Source of the DNA: Desulfobacterales bacterium
GTDB lineage: Bacteria > Desulfobacterota > Desulfobacteria > Desulfobacterales > JAFDCJ01
DNA length: 11,771 bases
Assembly: GCA_020345785.1 (NCBI GenBank)
Contig: CP070771.1
Location: forward strand, 617,739 to 629,509
Direction: 5' to 3'
How positions within the stretch are numbered: the first letter of the stretch is position 1; each line of letters begins with the position of its first letter. Both the position numbers and the translations under genes were made by a program. Positions 150 through 11,372 of this stretch are shown here, piece by piece. A model generated the notes under the pieces. That model had not been told where the DNA came from, searched no databases, and worked only from the letters and a program-made list of their open reading frames with translations.

Positions 150-219
150 TGCCCACTCAGTCCTCATACCTCAGTCCTCAACTTTTATGGGCCCTGCCCT
201 GCGCTCCGTGCCCTGAGCT
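150..219. repeat. Degenerate heptamer array crossing the rlmN stop codon
   Basis: Read in fixed 7-base steps, bases 157-184 are TCAGTCC, TCATACC, TCAGTCC, TCAACTT. In the same register, 192-219 is a 14-base (2 x 7) tandem duplication with 12 of 14 identical bases (CCCTGCC CTGCGCT, then CCGTGCC CTGAGCT). The second part is coding: it specifies about residues 352-361 of RlmN. The array therefore runs without a register break from the spacer through the stop codon (185-187) into the gene. Confidence 0.7.
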
Positions 220-1273
220 GTCCGCAGGCTGCCGATATGTCCTGCCCTTTACTGCGGCGGATAATGACCGTGTAATTTTTGGCGAACAGGATGTCGTAAA
301 ACGCTTTGATCGCCGTTTCGGCCGGCCGAACGAAGTCACAGCCTTCATGAGGGTTAAACGGAATCAGGTTGATCTTGGACCGGATCGGCTGAAGCATTTT
401 CGCCAGGCGTCTGGCGTCTTCCTCCGAATCGTTGAGTCCCTTGATGAGAATGTATTCAAACGTGATTCTGCGGCCGGGCTGCAGCGGAAACTGCCGACAG
501 GCTTCCAGCAGGGCTTCCAGGGGATAGGTGCGGTTGATGGGCATCAGGCGGCTGCGGGTTTCATTGTCGGCTGCATTGAGGGAGACTGCCAGATTCACCT
601 TTGTATCCCGGCCCAGGGCGGGAATTTTGGGGGCCAAACCGGCGGTAGAGACCGTCACCCGACGGCCGGCAAAGCGCAGTCCCGCGTTGTTGTCGGTGAT
701 GGCGCCGATGGCACTCACCAGATGTTTGTAGTTGGCCAGGGGTTCGCCCATCCCCATAAAAACGATATTGCTCAAGCGCTCGGGGTCGTCTAATTCTTTT
801 TTGATATCGCGCACCTGGGCAATTATCTCGGCCCGGGTCAGATTGCGCTCGAAACCGCCGGTTGCCGTCAGGCAGAACAGGCACCCCTGGGCGCAACCCA
901 CCTGGCTCGACACGCAAAGGGTATAATGATCCCTTTCCGGGATGAGGACCGTTTCAATGTGTCGGCCGTCGTTTAATCTGAAAAGGTATTTGCGCGATCC
1001 GTCCCGGGATTTTTCAATGCGCTCGACACCCAGCCGACCGACCACGAAATGCCGTGACAGCAGGCCCCGGATCTCTTTGGAAATATCGGTCATACGATCA
1101 AAGTCGTCAACCTGGCGCATATAGATCCACTTTTGAATCTGGTCGGCGCGATAGGCGGCAATATCCCGTTCGGTCAGCCAGTCGACCAGCTGTTCACGCG
1201 TGAATTCAAGGATATCTGTCTTTTTATTGGTATCGAATTCATGCATTTTGATCATGACCCTTGTCGGGTTCAT
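185..1273 (-). CDS. rlmN: Dual-specificity RNA methyltransferase RlmN (23S rRNA A2503 / tRNA A37 C2-methyl)
   Basis: This is a radical-SAM enzyme that methylates C2 of adenine 2503 in 23S rRNA and adenine 37 in some tRNAs. The radical-SAM cluster motif CxxxCxxC is at C127, C131 and C134, with the GMGEP motif at 174-178. The two RlmN-specific cysteines are present: C120 in LCVSSQVGC, exactly seven residues before the cluster as in E. coli (C118/C125), and methyl-carrying C350 in AACGQL. At 362 residues the length is normal for the family. The ATG at 1273 has no Shine-Dalgarno; in-frame ATGs at 1255 and 1246 are alternatives, the last preceded by AAGGG at 1258-1262 but 11 bases away. The C-terminus after CGQL is short and repeat-derived. 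It is divergent from ffh and stands alone on its strand. Confidence 0.95.
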   Translation of the reverse strand: MNPTRVMIKMHEFDTNKKTDILEFTREQLVDWLTERDIAAYRADQIQKWIYMRQVDDFDRMTDISKEIRGLLSRHFVVGRLGVERIEKSRDGSRKYLFRLNDGRHIETVLIPERDHYTLCVSSQVGCAQGCLFCLTATGGFERNLTRAEIIAQVRDIKKELDDPERLSNIVFMGMGEPLANYKHLVSAIGAITDNNAGLRFAGRRVTVSTAGLAPKIPALGRDTKVNLAVSLNAADNETRSRLMPINRTYPLEALLEACRQFPLQPGRRITFEYILIKGLNDSEEDARRLAKMLQPIRSKINLIPFNPHEGCDFVRPAETAIKAFYDILFAKNYTVIIRRSKGQDISAACGQLRARSAGQGP

Positions 1274-1315: not shown

Positions 1316-1355
1316 AAGCTGGGAGGCTGGAAGGCCAGGAGGCTGGGAAGCCAGG
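1316..1355. repeat. Five-unit degenerate octamer array
   Basis: In steps of eight the sequence reads AAGCTGGG, AGGCTGGA, AGGCCAGG, AGGCTGGG, AAGCCAGG. A 15-base stretch of it (1321-1335) recurs exactly at 9812-9826 in a different spacer about 8.5 kb away, so it belongs to a dispersed family. Confidence 0.75.
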
Positions 1356-8382: not shown

Positions 8383-8407
8383 TAATGGTCTTGCCCGTGC
8401 TTGCAAA

Positions 8408-8470
8408 AAATCTCAAATTCCAAATTTCAAATCTCAAATAAATTACAATGACCAAAATAAAAAATTCCAA
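8408..8470. repeat. A-rich heptamer array downstream of the PPTase
   Basis: Bases 8415-8470 read in 7-base steps as AAATTCC, AAATTTC, AAATCTC, AAATAAA, TTACAAT, GACCAAA, ATAAAAA, ATTCCAA. It begins about 25 bases after the PPTase stop, where a terminator might be expected. It is complementary in character to the array at 8589-8648. Confidence 0.75.
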
Positions 8471-8588
8471 ACCGAACTCAATCTGTCTTGGTCATCGCTT
8501 CAGATAACCAGGCGATCCTTTACATGAATGCACGAGAGTTCTAACACACGAAAAAAGAAAGTTGGGTTTTCCCGGTTTAGCCGTTTTT

Positions 8589-8648
8589 GGTCATTGATAA
8601 TTGCGATTTGGGATTTATTTGTTATTTGGTGCTTGGAATTTGGAATTT
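8589..8648. repeat. T-rich heptamer array, reverse-complement partner of 8408-8470
   Basis: In 7-base steps: GGTCATT, GATAATT, GCGATTT, GGGATTT, ATTTGTT, ATTTGGT, GCTTGGA, ATTTGGA. Its reverse complement begins AAATTCC, AAATTCC and ends with the GACC block, the same order as the left array. It overlaps the stop codon (8647-8649) of the minus-strand oxidoreductase. The two arrays together form a long imperfect inverted repeat around about 118 bases of spacer. Confidence 0.75.
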
Positions 8649-9630
8649 ATACTTTTACCTCCAGGATCACCTTGCCGATGTTGCGATCCTGCCGGACATG
8701 GGCGTGTGCAGCCTGCGCCTCTGTAATCGGAAAAATCTTATCGATCACCGGTTTGAGCCTGCCCTCTTCCACGAGCGGCCAGAATCGCTCTTTAAATTTT
8801 TGGGTTATGAATATCTTTTGGTTCAGCGGCCGCGCCCGCAAGCGCGTGGCGATGATGCGCAGGCTTTTGCCGAGTATCGTCCCCAGATTCAAATCAGCCG
8901 TGCCGCCGCCAAGCAGTCCGATTACCACCAGCCGTCCGTTTGTCTTTAGAAGATTCAAATTCTGATTCAGATAAGGTCCCCCGACCGGATCCAGGATGAG
9001 ATCGATACCCTCGCCGCCGGTGTCGTCCATTGCTTCTTTGAAGAAGTCCTGTGTTTTGTAGTTGATTGCCAGGCGGGCGCCCAACTCACGGCAGGCCTCC
9101 AGCTTGGCCTGATTTCCGGCGGTGACATACACGACCGCGCCGGCTGCGCGGGCCATTTGAATGCCGGCCGTGCCAACCCCGCTGGCACCGGCGTGGAGCA
9201 TGACCGTCTCACCGGATTTGAGATCGCCCTCCAAGAAGAGATTGCTGAAAGCCGTCAGCCAGACTTCCGGGATGGCGGCCCCTTCAGCAAACGACCAGCT
9301 ATCCGGCAATCTGATCAGCATTTGAGAGTGCACGGCGACCTGCTGCGCGTAGCCGCCGCCGGGCAGCAGCCCGGCCACGCGATCGCCGATCTGCCAGCCC
9401 TCGACCGCATCCCCAACGGCTGCAACCACGCCGGCCATTTCCAGTCCGATAATTTCAGACTCACCGGGCGGCGGCGGGTACGCACCCATCGCCTGCAGCA
9501 GATCGGCCCGGTTGACGGCGGTAGCCTTTATGTCGACCAGCACCTCCTCCGGACCATGGGCAACATCGGGCACGGTCTCCCAGACCAGCACAGGTTCTTT
9601 GTCCGATTTTTTAACCACAATTGCTTTCAT
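8647..9630 (-). CDS. NAD(P)H quinone oxidoreductase, PIG3 (TP53I3-like) family
   Basis: This is a zinc-independent medium-chain dehydrogenase/reductase of 327 residues, predicted to reduce quinones with NAD(P)H. PIG3-family features are NRADLLQ (40-46), GAYPPPPGESEIIGLEMAG (49-67) and GDRVAGLLPGGGYAQ (82-96). The cofactor-binding Rossmann loop AGASGVGTAGIQMA is at 147-160, followed by the DPVGG block and the C-terminal DRNIGKVIL. No structural-zinc cysteine cluster is seen. The start is well supported: AGGAGG (minus strand of 9638-9643) lies seven bases from the ATG. A promoter candidate lies at 9660-9689. It appears to be a single-gene unit unrelated to its neighbours. Confidence 0.92.
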   Translation of the reverse strand: MKAIVVKKSDKEPVLVWETVPDVAHGPEEVLVDIKATAVNRADLLQAMGAYPPPPGESEIIGLEMAGVVAAVGDAVEGWQIGDRVAGLLPGGGYAQQVAVHSQMLIRLPDSWSFAEGAAIPEVWLTAFSNLFLEGDLKSGETVMLHAGASGVGTAGIQMARAAGAVVYVTAGNQAKLEACRELGARLAINYKTQDFFKEAMDDTGGEGIDLILDPVGGPYLNQNLNLLKTNGRLVVIGLLGGGTADLNLGTILGKSLRIIATRLRARPLNQKIFITQKFKERFWPLVEEGRLKPVIDKIFPITEAQAAHAHVRQDRNIGKVILEVKV

Positions 9631-9659
9631 AAAGCTGCCTCCTGTTCAATTCATTTCGA

Positions 9660-9689
9660 TTTATACGTAACTCTTTCAAATCTATCCAA
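9660..9689 (-). promoter_or_regulatory. Candidate promoter of the quinone oxidoreductase gene
   Basis: On the minus strand TTGGAT (9689-9684) is followed after 18 bases by TATAAA (9665-9660), about 30 bases upstream of the start codon. The -10 is good and the -35 only partial. Confidence 0.4.
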
Positions 9690-9704
9690 GTAAATTAAGA
9701 TCAA

Positions 9705-9794
9705 AAGTTCAAGGTGCAAGGCAGAAGACCGAAGGTGGGAAGGTGGAACTTCAACGCTTAGGGCAAAGAGCATAGCGCAAAGCGTATATGCAGA
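9705..9794. repeat. Purine-rich heptamer arrays
   Basis: Two blocks of 7-base units: 9705-9746 (AAGTTCA, AGGTGCA, AGGCAGA, AGACCGA, AGGTGGG, AAGGTGG) and 9760-9794 (AGGGCAA, AGAGCAT, AGCGCAA, AGCGTAT, ATGCAGA). The units are reverse-complement relatives of those on the right side of the same spacer: AAGGTGCA at 9711-9718 answers TGCACCTT at 9907-9914, and the AGAGCAT/AGCGCAA units answer the CCTATGC/GCTATGC units near 10186-10206. Confidence 0.7.
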
Positions 9795-9846
9795 TGATAA
9801 AAATCTAAGCCGGGAGGCTGGAAGGCTATGATGCGGGGAGACTTGT

Positions 9847-9958
9847 GCCGTGCGCCTTCTTCCTTTTGCCGTGAGCCGTGCGCCGTTAGCCTTTAACCTT
9901 ATACCCTGCACCTTAAACCTTATACCGCTCTTTATCCAGTATCCAGCATCCAGTAACC
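9847..9958. repeat. Sixteen-unit heptamer array with drifting consensus
   Basis: All 112 bases can be cut into 7-base units without a register slip. They start GCCGTGC, GCCTTCT, pass through GCCGTTA, GCCTTTA, ACCTTAT, ACCCTGC, ACCTTAA and end TTTATCC, AGTATCC, AGCATCC, AGTAACC. Thirteen units carry a CC in positions 2-3 or 6-7; the unit changes gradually from GCC-type to ACC-type to ATCC-type. Confidence 0.8.
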
Positions 9959-9995
9959 GAAACAAATGACAATTGAATATTGACTAATTATGGAA

Positions 9996-10034
9996 GGCGC
10001 ACGCGCAGCGCAGGCGCTTGCGCCGCGTGTCGCC
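9996..10034. terminator. GC-rich 14-bp hairpin, possible terminator
   Basis: Stem: GGCG (9996-9999) with CGCC (10031-10034), CACGCG (10000-10005) with CGCGTG (10024-10029), and GCGC (10008-10011) with GCGC (10020-10023), with an 8-base loop and small bulges. It is the strongest hairpin I see in the window and lies between two minus-strand genes. On the plus strand a short T run follows (TCTTTT, 10038-10043); on the minus strand no U tract follows. It could end transcription from the actin-like gene or be part of the repeat system. Confidence 0.4.
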
Positions 10035-10080
10035 CGGTCTTTTGATAACTTTATAAGACAGATAGAATTCCTTCAATCGA

Positions 10081-10234
10081 CATTCGACATTCGACATTCG
10101 ACATTCGTCAATCCGCTATCCCCCGCACCCCGTACCCCGCACCCCGCAACACATTCACCTTCGTCTCAGCGCCTTTACGCTCTGCCCTATGCGCTATGCC
10201 CTATGCCCATACCCCGTACCTCGCACCCCGCACC
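10081..10234. repeat. Twenty-two-unit heptamer array with drifting consensus
   Basis: 154 bases divide into 22 heptamers in one register: CATTCGA three times and CATTCGT, then CAATCCG, CTATCCC, CCGCACC, CCGTACC, CCGCACC, CCGCAAC, later CCTTTAC, CCTATGC, GCTATGC, CCTATGC, CCATACC, CCGTACC, TCGCACC, CCGCACC. Exact copies exist only for neighbouring units, but the phase holds throughout. The array ends about five bases from the stop codon of the minus-strand actin-like gene. Confidence 0.85.
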
Positions 10235-10238
10235 GCGT

Positions 10239-11372
10239 CTACATCTCCGACAATTCATCCTCGCTGACGGCTTCAATGTCTTCCGGATTGTTTTCTTCAT
10301 ATTCCGTTTCGGATTCTTCCTCATTCTCCGCTATCATTGATCCATTGGCCGCATCCCCCCAGACGTACCGGCCGTACTTGATATAACCCAAGACATTGTT
10401 GAGTCTTGGATCCTTGTTGGGATCAACCGGTATGATGTTGCCGATAATCAGGGGCTGGAGATAACTTGCCAGTTCCCGGCACCCGCCGCCGGATAGGATG
10501 ATCGTATCGATATCCCAGTCGTCCGCCCACAGCCGATCAATTTCGTTCGCAATGGTGCCGGCCAACTGCGAGTAAACCTGATCCCGAATTTTTGAAAATG
10601 AGAATCCGTGGCCGCGCATTTTGATTGAGCCTGTCTCAGCTGCTTTGTACAGGCGGAAGAGTTCAACGGCGACGCCGCACTTTTCCCGCAGCTTGTTTGC
10701 AATGAAGCTGAAACCTTTCGAGATGCCGCTATCGATGGTCCTGCTGCCGCGGTCAATGTAGCGCAGCCGATCCAGAATAGTAAAGTCTGTTGTCCGAAAT
10801 CCGATGTCAACCACGCCGATTTTCTGATTGGCAAGTTCCTTGTTTAAGATTTTGCCTCGGTCATCCATCAGAAGGTTTAAAATGCTGCCCATCGGCTGCG
10901 GCAGCATCCGCACCTTGTTGATATATATCTCCTTGGTTATCTGGTGGCCATTGTGCGAATGGTAGGTAACCTTGTGATGACCGCTGAGCAGTTCATTGAA
11001 TCTTTCGTGATTCTGCTTGAAGTAACCGATCGGAAGTCCGGACACCACGTTCACAGGAACATTGATCGGTGCGCCTTTTTTCAGAAACATACCGGCTACC
11101 GTCAACGATAGAATTCTGACATAATCCGTAATCAATCTTTCCTGATCCAGGGTAAAGTGCAGAACGCTCGATTGCTGCTCTGCCAGATCGCCTACGAAGT
11201 AAGACTTGCCGTCTATGGTCACATGAATGTGATCGGTAGGGGTGTCTTCACCAAAATCGGCCCAGAATTGAATGTCGGCCGCCTCTCCGAAAATAGATTT
11301 GAAGATTACCGTGTCTCTGCCATTGGTCGCTTTGGTGAAACCAAAGCCGATATCGATGCCGAGGACTTCCAT
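10239..11372 (-). CDS. ParM/StbA-like bacterial actin with acidic C-terminal tail
   Basis: This 377-residue protein belongs to the actin/Hsp70 ATPase fold, closest by motif to ParM/StbA-type and Alp-type actin-like filament proteins. Phosphate-1 loop: GIDIGFGFTK (5-14, D7). Connect/catalytic region: MLPQPMGSIL (156-165, with Q159 where other actins have Q or E). Phosphate-2 loop: VVDIGFRTTDF (187-197, D189). Adenosine loop: IILSGGGCRELASYL (291-305). The last 30 residues (about 348-377) contain 15 Glu or Asp and are probably disordered. The start is firm: GGAGG (minus strand of 11379-11383) lies six bases from the ATG, with a TTGACT/TAGAAT promoter upstream. No ParR-like partner is seen on either side. 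Role (DNA segregation, cell shape or other) not determinable here. Confidence 0.88.
   Translation of the reverse strand: MEVLGIDIGFGFTKATNGRDTVIFKSIFGEAADIQFWADFGEDTPTDHIHVTIDGKSYFVGDLAEQQSSVLHFTLDQERLITDYVRILSLTVAGMFLKKGAPINVPVNVVSGLPIGYFKQNHERFNELLSGHHKVTYHSHNGHQITKEIYINKVRMLPQPMGSILNLLMDDRGKILNKELANQKIGVVDIGFRTTDFTILDRLRYIDRGSRTIDSGISKGFSFIANKLREKCGVAVELFRLYKAAETGSIKMRGHGFSFSKIRDQVYSQLAGTIANEIDRLWADDWDIDTIILSGGGCRELASYLQPLIIGNIIPVDPNKDPRLNNVLGYIKYGRYVWGDAANGSMIAENEEESETEYEENNPEDIEAVSEDELSEM

Follow-up and report, generated by a model that had tools for sequence, protein, structure and literature searches.

Analysis of an 11,771-nt stretch of Desulfobacterales DNA (hereafter the window) indicated that its period-7 arrays are probably the arms of dispersed, non-coding, REP/MITE-like hairpin elements of Desulfobacterales, which evolve by heptad duplication with divergence. 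Such elements are common among relatives of this sediment-type host, and they often lie right behind genes. In our best reading, these heptad-armed elements extend the known bacterial heptamer repeats, and the window array is not a lone satellite. A search for publications on heptad-armed hairpin elements of Desulfobacterales found none by title.

The following course of events is proposed. The elements would be spread through genomes by some agent. An arm would gain or lose whole heptads, most likely by replication slippage, in which a unit is duplicated or lost beside its neighbour; because heptads would be gained and lost while the copies diverge by substitution, the word would drift along the array. 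The word class shared by the two arms of an element may result from arm-to-arm copying or from selection for pairing in the formed hairpin. Elements located behind stop codons would be transcribed as 3'-UTR hairpins, and our best guess is that they act in the processing or stability of 3' ends or in termination.

Period-7 arrays and their surroundings in the window

The period of 7 at positions 10081-10234 is certain. Identity at lag 7 was 0.653, compared with a mean of 0.310 (sd 0.034, maximum 0.429) in 2000 dinucleotide shuffles; the highest shuffle value over all lags 2-30 was 0.455, and in the native sequence only multiples of 7 scored >0.40 over the same lags. The initial annotation had described this region as 22 heptamers in a single register with an in-register change of unit. 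The periodicity itself withstood the comparison with shuffled sequence, which did not reach the observed score. The single register gave way to two arrays, 10074-10148 and 10173-10237, separated by a gap that lacks period 7. Consecutive heptads of 10081-10234 matched at 7, 7, 6, 4, 5, 3, 6, 6, 6, 1, 2, 1, 1, 4, 5, 6, 6, 3, 6, 5 and 6 of 7 positions; the four transitions within 10144-10178 (1, 2, 1 and 1 of 7) are below the level expected by chance, ∼2.2/7, and no lag-7 segment was found in the gap (10149-10172, no strand assigned). The change of unit in register is true inside each array.

Array 1 (10074-10148, + strand, lag-7 score 42) passes from CATTCGA through CATTCGT, CAATCCG and CTATCCC to CCGCACC, and Tandem Repeats Finder reported period 7 in two parts of it, 10077-10107 and 10121-10148. 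Array 2 (10173-10237, + strand, score 28) runs from CTATGCC through CATACCC and CGTACCT to CGCACCC. The only word common to both sides of the gap is that of the CCGCACC-type blocks, so that phase across the gap could be judged for these alone. The two blocks agree in phase, with a similarity of 0.82 at shift 0 and of 0.48 at the next best shift, an agreement that has a chance probability of 1 in 7; the CATTCGA block showed no preferred phase relative to the other blocks.

The originally annotated interval was too narrow. Additional lag-7 segments on the + strand were found at 9704-9784 (G-rich, score 14, which equals the threshold), 9844-9926 (C-rich, GCCGTGA, ACCTTAT and similar units, score 28) and 9933-9986 (TATCCAG units followed by ACAAATG/ACAATTG/AATATTG beside the core described below, score 15). 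Together with the two arrays they form a mosaic of ∼540 bp (9704-10237), which ends one base from the stop codon (10239-10241) of the gene at 10239-11372 (-), according to the ORF coordinates. A dispersed-element context, inverted repeats and placement behind stop codons, all absent from the initial annotation, were found as well. The core of a dispersed element occupies 9985-10073 (+); the query 9985-10108 matched 18/58 relative genomes, with a best E value of 1.8e-20. Inside the core are the junction sequence AGACAGATAGAATTCCT (about 10056-10072, +), before the CATTCGA units, and a GC-rich palindrome (10001-10030, no strand assigned) that is 80% self-complementary over 30 nt. By self-comparison, an outer inverted pair has its left arm at 9756-9791 (+) and its partner at 10171-10206 (80.6% over 36 nt, E 5.6e-6). 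One dispersed element ends in the CATTCGA block, and the CTATGCC block makes up an arm of the outer inverted pair.

Complementarity between the left and right sides of the mosaic was 22, and the maximum in 500 shuffles was 16, a shuffling that also destroys periodicity. Two results on folding and pairing count against the hairpin reading: the advantage of the whole mosaic (541 nt) over shuffles in folding was modest (z -1.83, 3/100), and complementarity of the CATTCGA arm to its supposed left partner at 9963-9992 was 6.0, against a shuffle mean of 6.2. Onion-like growth, with mirrored word order on both sides, was rejected: the pairs 9704-9727/9898-9921 and 9756-9791/10171-10206 cross and are not nested. 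The open frame at 9990-10340 was also rejected as a gene, since the steps of 7 by which homologous arms change are not divisible by 3. No intrinsic terminator and no sigma-70-like promoter was predicted at 9600-10300, and no Rfam family matched the window above its gathering score. Pfam matches in the window comprised RlmN, Ffh-type SRP54, phosphopantetheinyl transferase, zinc-type dehydrogenase and an actin-like protein; the remaining genes were recognised by eye only.

A second element is located at 8408-8655. Its left arm (8408-8439, +, a lag-7 segment of AAATCTC/AAATTCC units) is complementary to 8608-8648 (75.6% over 41 nt), its right arm (8587-8655, +, lag-7 score 22) overlaps the ORF at 8647-9630 (-) by its final 9 bases, and the region 8395-8655 folded with a z-score of -2.68. 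A short CTCAGTC array (156-180, +, Tandem Repeats Finder) ends four bases from the stop (185-187) of the RlmN-type gene at 185-1273 (-), which carries Pfam domain RlmN_N. Three arrays of the window therefore meet stop codons, with their ends at 10237, 180 and 8655. Two minor similarities were also seen. The region 8400-8655 combines AAATYYC arms with a AATGACCAAA motif, and similar sequence occurs in the relative genome G008 (L130:809-842). Repeats of the GGCTGGGAGGCTGG type, with an 8/16-base period, are present behind rlmN (window 1318-1355), and the same word occurs in the mosaic at about 9815-9830.

Dispersal among relatives and position relative to genes

The sequence 9985-10108 is dispersed among relatives. 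In a match search of 58 relatives that scored at most 15 candidates per genome, eight genomes had at least 15 matches (G001, G002, G007, G008, G015, G016, G017 and G047). The palindrome side of the query (4-62) and its junction plus heptads (66-123) behave separately among relatives: among the matches listed, all of those in G047 were on the palindrome side, and the match in G038 was limited to 29 nt of the palindrome. The printed copies often follow the plan [heptads]-TGGAAGTCGCT-...-TTTATAAAATAGACAGAATTCCTT-[heptads]; some of them contain the palindrome, and others carry different inserts. Copies of the GC palindrome CGCAGCGCAGGCGCTTGCGCC (window 10001-10030) that do not belong to the heptad element were seen in L149, L150, L151, L167 and L169. 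In three of these loci (L149, L150 and L167) the copy is found in the loop of another inverted repeat, like an independent repeat that settles in hairpin loops.

The actin-like protein of the window is 70-81% identical to nine records (L001-L009) titled Desulfobacterales, deltaproteobacterial or proteobacterial MAGs. Behind the actin-like gene, period-7 elements with other words were seen by eye only in L002 and L008 among the 16 loci printed, of which one (L048) had its stop misread. No agent of spread was found, and this counts against the hairpin reading. Spread by a Y1-type (RAYT) transposase was considered and provisionally set aside, since Y1 counts, judged by eye, do not track element matches. 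Y1_Tnp matches were present in 52/58 relatives; G008 had 10, G002 2 and G047 1, and among genomes without an element match G063 had 31 and G026 24.

Period-7 density ranged from 0.5 to 24 segments per 100 kb over seven sampled Desulfobacterales-type genomes. G008, on 13 contigs chosen regardless of hits, gave 53 lag-7 segments in 219,670 bp (24.1 per 100 kb). The values for G055 (18.0, with 3/5 stretches from contigs that had a known hit), G001 (9.0, with 1/10 stretches on a hit-carrying contig), G027 (7.5), G005 (6.0, with 4/5 stretches on hit-carrying contigs) and G006 (4.5; 18 segments in 396,268 bp, N excluded) were lower. G063 (L285-L294) had 1 lag-7 segment in 200 kb, or 0.5 per 100 kb, which again counts against the hairpin reading; despite this near-absence of arrays, its Y1-type transposase matches are the most numerous among the 58 genomes. 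Lag 7 was the leading lag in 6/7 sampled genomes, G063 being the exception. Besides lag 7, G008 had more than one segment only at lags 8 and 9, which came next in frequency, and at multiples of 7, 8 or 9. Among single loci, 17 of Desulfobacterota type carried 20 lag-7 segments in 179,404 bp, three Geobacter/Desulfobulbaceae/Desulfuromonadales loci carried none in 30,199 bp, and 38 mostly gamma- and zetaproteobacterial control loci carried 2 in 437,284 bp.

Arrays are mostly intergenic and crowd at stop codons. ORFs of at least 150 aa cover 74% of the bases sampled in G008 and contain 11% of the array bases; in six genomes, 19/163 arrays were inside ORFs of at least 120 aa. On 20 contigs of G008, 16 arrays were located ≤10 nt from a stop codon, whereas 4.2 were expected and 2000 random placements gave at most 14. 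The 13 unselected contigs yielded 11 such arrays (2.7 expected, maximum 9). On the start side of genes in G008 no array lay as near, against 3.0 expected on the 20 contigs and 2.1 on the 13 unselected ones. Five other genomes, when pooled, had 20 arrays near stops against 8.7 expected (0/5000 placements) and 8 on the start side against 7.7 expected; the stop-side counts of G006 alone (6 vs. 2.8) and G055 alone (8 vs. 4.2) were within the permutation range. The ORFs in these counts are mechanical, and some stops may lie within arrays that truncated a gene.

Heptad drift, arm length and arm pairing

Heptad identity decays with distance along the arrays. In a sample of 31 arrays of at least 70 bp from 20 contigs of G008, of which 7 contigs had been selected because they carried a hit, the identities for lags 7-63 in steps of 7 were 0.662, 0.586, 0.524, 0.448, 0.401, 0.380, 0.347, 0.333 and 0.309, and off phase it was 0.253. 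As abrupt changes of word could mimic decay, we also kept only homogeneous runs, in which neighbours agree at 4/7 or more; in 71 such runs identity was 0.732 for the second, 0.734 for the third and 0.607 for the ninth neighbour. Drift is general in G008, the relative scanned most closely, and the drifting unit does not stand out as a peculiarity of the window array, for which it had been taken.

The length of an arm changes by whole heptads. We located 79 junctions followed by TTCGA, and 21 distinct arms reached the border TTCGC(T/A)TTT within 110 nt. (A looser far border had given 35 rows, several of them spurious, with lengths over six modulo-7 classes; the stricter border was then used.) The lengths of 13 arms were 0 modulo 7 (28 nt in four, 35 nt in six, then 42, 49 and 56 nt), those of seven were 5 modulo 7 and one was 1 modulo 7. 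The same 19-nt insertion, TTTATCCGCCT..GGAGGA, sits at an identical place in six of the seven 5-modulo-7 arms (L156, L219, L220, L306, L312 and L146), whose lengths minus the insertion are 28, 35 or 49. Other GC-rich sequence is present in L216, the seventh of these arms, and in L215, the 1-modulo-7 arm. Once arms with inserted GC-rich sequence are set aside, all 13/13 bounded arms are thus exact multiples of 7 (28-56 nt), from which we concluded that the number of units changes in steps of 7. The 13 arms are homologous, so that a fair count is five distinct lengths and not 13 trials. Local expansion of runs was evident inside arms, in the form (TTCGACA)n-TTCATTA-(TTCGATA)m. The initial annotation had offered stepwise duplication with divergence and had proposed that the same spacer be compared among sister strains for steps of 7. 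The decay of identity in G008 and the whole-heptad differences among homologous arms both support this account, and neither of the two outcomes named there as refuting was seen; the comparison drew on six genomes (G001, G002, G007, G008, G015 and G016) and not on strains of one species.

The words that follow the same junction include ATTCGAC, TTGGACG, AAATCTT, ATTCCTA, AATATTC and AAATCCG, and a few arms (L134, L157 and L139:10617) have words of a 9-base ATTTTAGGC or an 8-base AACCAATC type. The arms of one element tend to share a word class. In 93 elements, a subset chosen by a strict junction and a right-arm filter for period 7, 8 or 9, the score of an element's own left and right arms was 13.5 and that of swapped arms 10.9; 0/10,000 permutations reached the value for own arms. 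A first arm test with a loose junction pattern had given 550 sites, mostly noise, and own arms were no better there (mean percentile 0.49). Word class, set by hand after the arms had been seen, was concordant in 40 of the 54 elements that could be classed (23.4 expected, maximum 35 in 20,000 permutations); the other 39 of the 93 were left out, having no class for one or both arms. Counting against the hairpin reading are the 14/54 elements whose arms are of different class, and also the ATTCGAC class (28 elements), in which the coupling is weak and was reached by 104/10,000 permutations.

Orthologous sites, alternative explanations and known heptamer repeats

Behind an iron-sulfur protein gene, a hairpin is present at the same place in six genomes, namely G008 itself and those in which the gene is 75-80% identical to that of G008. 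The words in this spacer are of one class in G008, G015 and G017 and of another in G001, and they are 10-base words in G016 and G007. Own arms ranked 6/720 assignments, and the fold z-scores were -1.4 to -4.8. The gene was found in 48/58 relatives. Of 30 loci retrieved, two were too short and 28 were printed, with the stop codon misplaced in some of them, e.g., G008 (L255) and G015 (L259). Beyond the six genomes, short-word hairpins behind the gene were seen by eye only in L264 and L270. In the next spacer a similar core is present in G008, G017, G016 and G001, with differing arms. Pairing of own arms there was slightly worse than the mean swap (rank 14/24), a further point against the hairpin reading. 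In G007 (L236; counterpart L139:13205-13379) the element of this spacer is reduced to 35 nt, little beyond two facing arms. At a third site, G008 has the L131 element, and no such element was seen behind the gene of six relatives. Two of these relatives, G001 and G007, keep the same next gene, as judged by eye.

These sites also bear on other explanations. Different hairpin families might enter behind the same stops, so that a change of word is replacement and not rewriting. Three unrelated word classes in the one iron-sulfur spacer, the L131 element, seen in G008 and in none of six relatives, and the strong stop-codon preference would all fit such an insertion hot spot; the persistence of the same core in four genomes in the next spacer, with differing arms, does not. 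We consider this explanation possible, and the strongest of the alternatives. Somewhat more speculative, and in our view doubtful, is that the hairpins rewrite themselves: slipped arm pairing or a dedicated polymerase would copy the neighbouring or the opposite heptad into place, words would be replaced over time at a fixed site behind a gene with period and pairing kept, and 7 would be the size of the copying step. If true, this would explain the dominance of heptamers among long bacterial simple repeats. In the sampled genomes period-7 segments are as dense as one per about 4 kb, conserved arm borders let heptad gains and losses be read directly, and an orthologous site shows a word that differs between species; the step size, the role of the hairpin and the 3'-UTR function are therefore testable.

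It is unlikely that the arrays are fossils, that is, that elements spread with ready-made 7-periodic ends and vary because subfamilies were copied, with no ongoing gain or loss of heptads. The TTGGACG subfamily, in several G008 copies of which five variant heptads follow one another in almost one order, agrees with this, as does presence or absence at one orthologous spacer, which would be insertion or loss of whole elements; arms between the same borders, however, hold 4 to 8 heptads and contain local runs of identical units. The initial annotation had also suggested a protein contacting every seventh base. Such a DNA- or RNA-binding protein would leave the spacing selected and the sequence free. 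The strict 7-base phase in 13/13 bounded arms and the in-phase CCGCACC-type blocks of the window would be expected, but the register is broken at 10149-10172, many unrelated words follow one junction, a few copies have 8- or 9-base words at that junction, one orthologous spacer has 10-base words, and the loss of similarity with distance is not what selection on spacing only would produce; we found no positive support for this proposal and consider it improbable. Chance or ordinary low-complexity sequence, in favor of which there is the gap in register and nothing else, is practically negligible, as 0/2000 shuffles came near the observed value and none of the five sets of shuffled genome stretches contained a lag-7 segment.

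For the favored reading, dispersed hairpin elements with heptad-duplicating arms, comparable known systems include the REP/BIME, ERIC and MITE-type palindromes, which are short, multicopy, non-coding inverted repeats of spacers and of the regions behind genes. The elements described here are likewise dispersed non-coding inverted repeats; they differ in their heptad-word stems, and no transposase link was found for them. To our knowledge, stems of REP/BIME, ERIC or MITE are not known as tandem 7-base words. The comparison with MITE-type elements gave a mixed result: dispersal in relatives was seen and arms were coupled on average, but the CATTCGA element of the window showed no arm pairing beyond shuffles. 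The ends of the elements are themselves repeats, among which a target-site duplication would not stand out by eye. The STRR sequences of heterocystous cyanobacteria are intergenic tandem heptamers too, but they belong to another phylum and have other words; the nearest relatives of the protein adjacent to the mosaic are of Desulfobacterales type, 70-81% identical. STRR sequences are mentioned in PMC4692102 as Calothrix heptanucleotides.

Rehm et al. (2015, PMC4692102) describe GGGAATC and GGGGA(C/T)T heptamers in Xanthomonas and Nostoc that are intergenic, occur singly or as inverted pairs, differ in length between relatives, drift in unit and lie near stop codons on the sense strand. The present arrays resemble them in all of these respects (intergenic tandem heptamers, inverted pairs, length variation, stop-codon proximity and drift). 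In those repeats, however, there is one G-rich word able to form G-quadruplexes, whereas the present arrays have many unrelated words, several without G runs, and conserved cores attached; the CATTCGA units lack a run of G whichever strand is read and thus do not fit the GGGNATC quadruplex pattern. MacGregor (2015, PMC4679880) reported that TAACTGA direct repeats are dispersed and intergenic in Beggiatoaceae, cyanobacteria and Bacteroidetes. Both are dispersed intergenic heptamer arrays, but TAACTGA is one constant word, mostly just upstream of starts, and the arrays described here have many words, are enriched at stops and show no excess at starts; the units of the window are words other than TAACTGA. 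In Geobacter metallireducens, which belongs to a related class of bacteria, passages of PMC2700814 describe multicopy elements of four or five tandem heptanucleotides in tens of copies, with consensus words GGACCGG and MTYCTGA, some classes being paired on opposite strands, and interpret them as regulator-binding sites. Tandem heptanucleotides and opposite-strand pairs are shared with the present elements; the consensus words are others, and those passages do not describe drift or length steps.

Heptamers have been reported to outnumber the other long simple repeats of most bacterial genomes, and polymerase slippage over a 7-base contact was guessed as the cause (Mrazek 2007, as cited in PMC4679880 and PMC4692102). 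The present arrays share the general features of heptameric simple sequence repeats, with tandem 7-base units beyond chance and lengths that vary by whole units.
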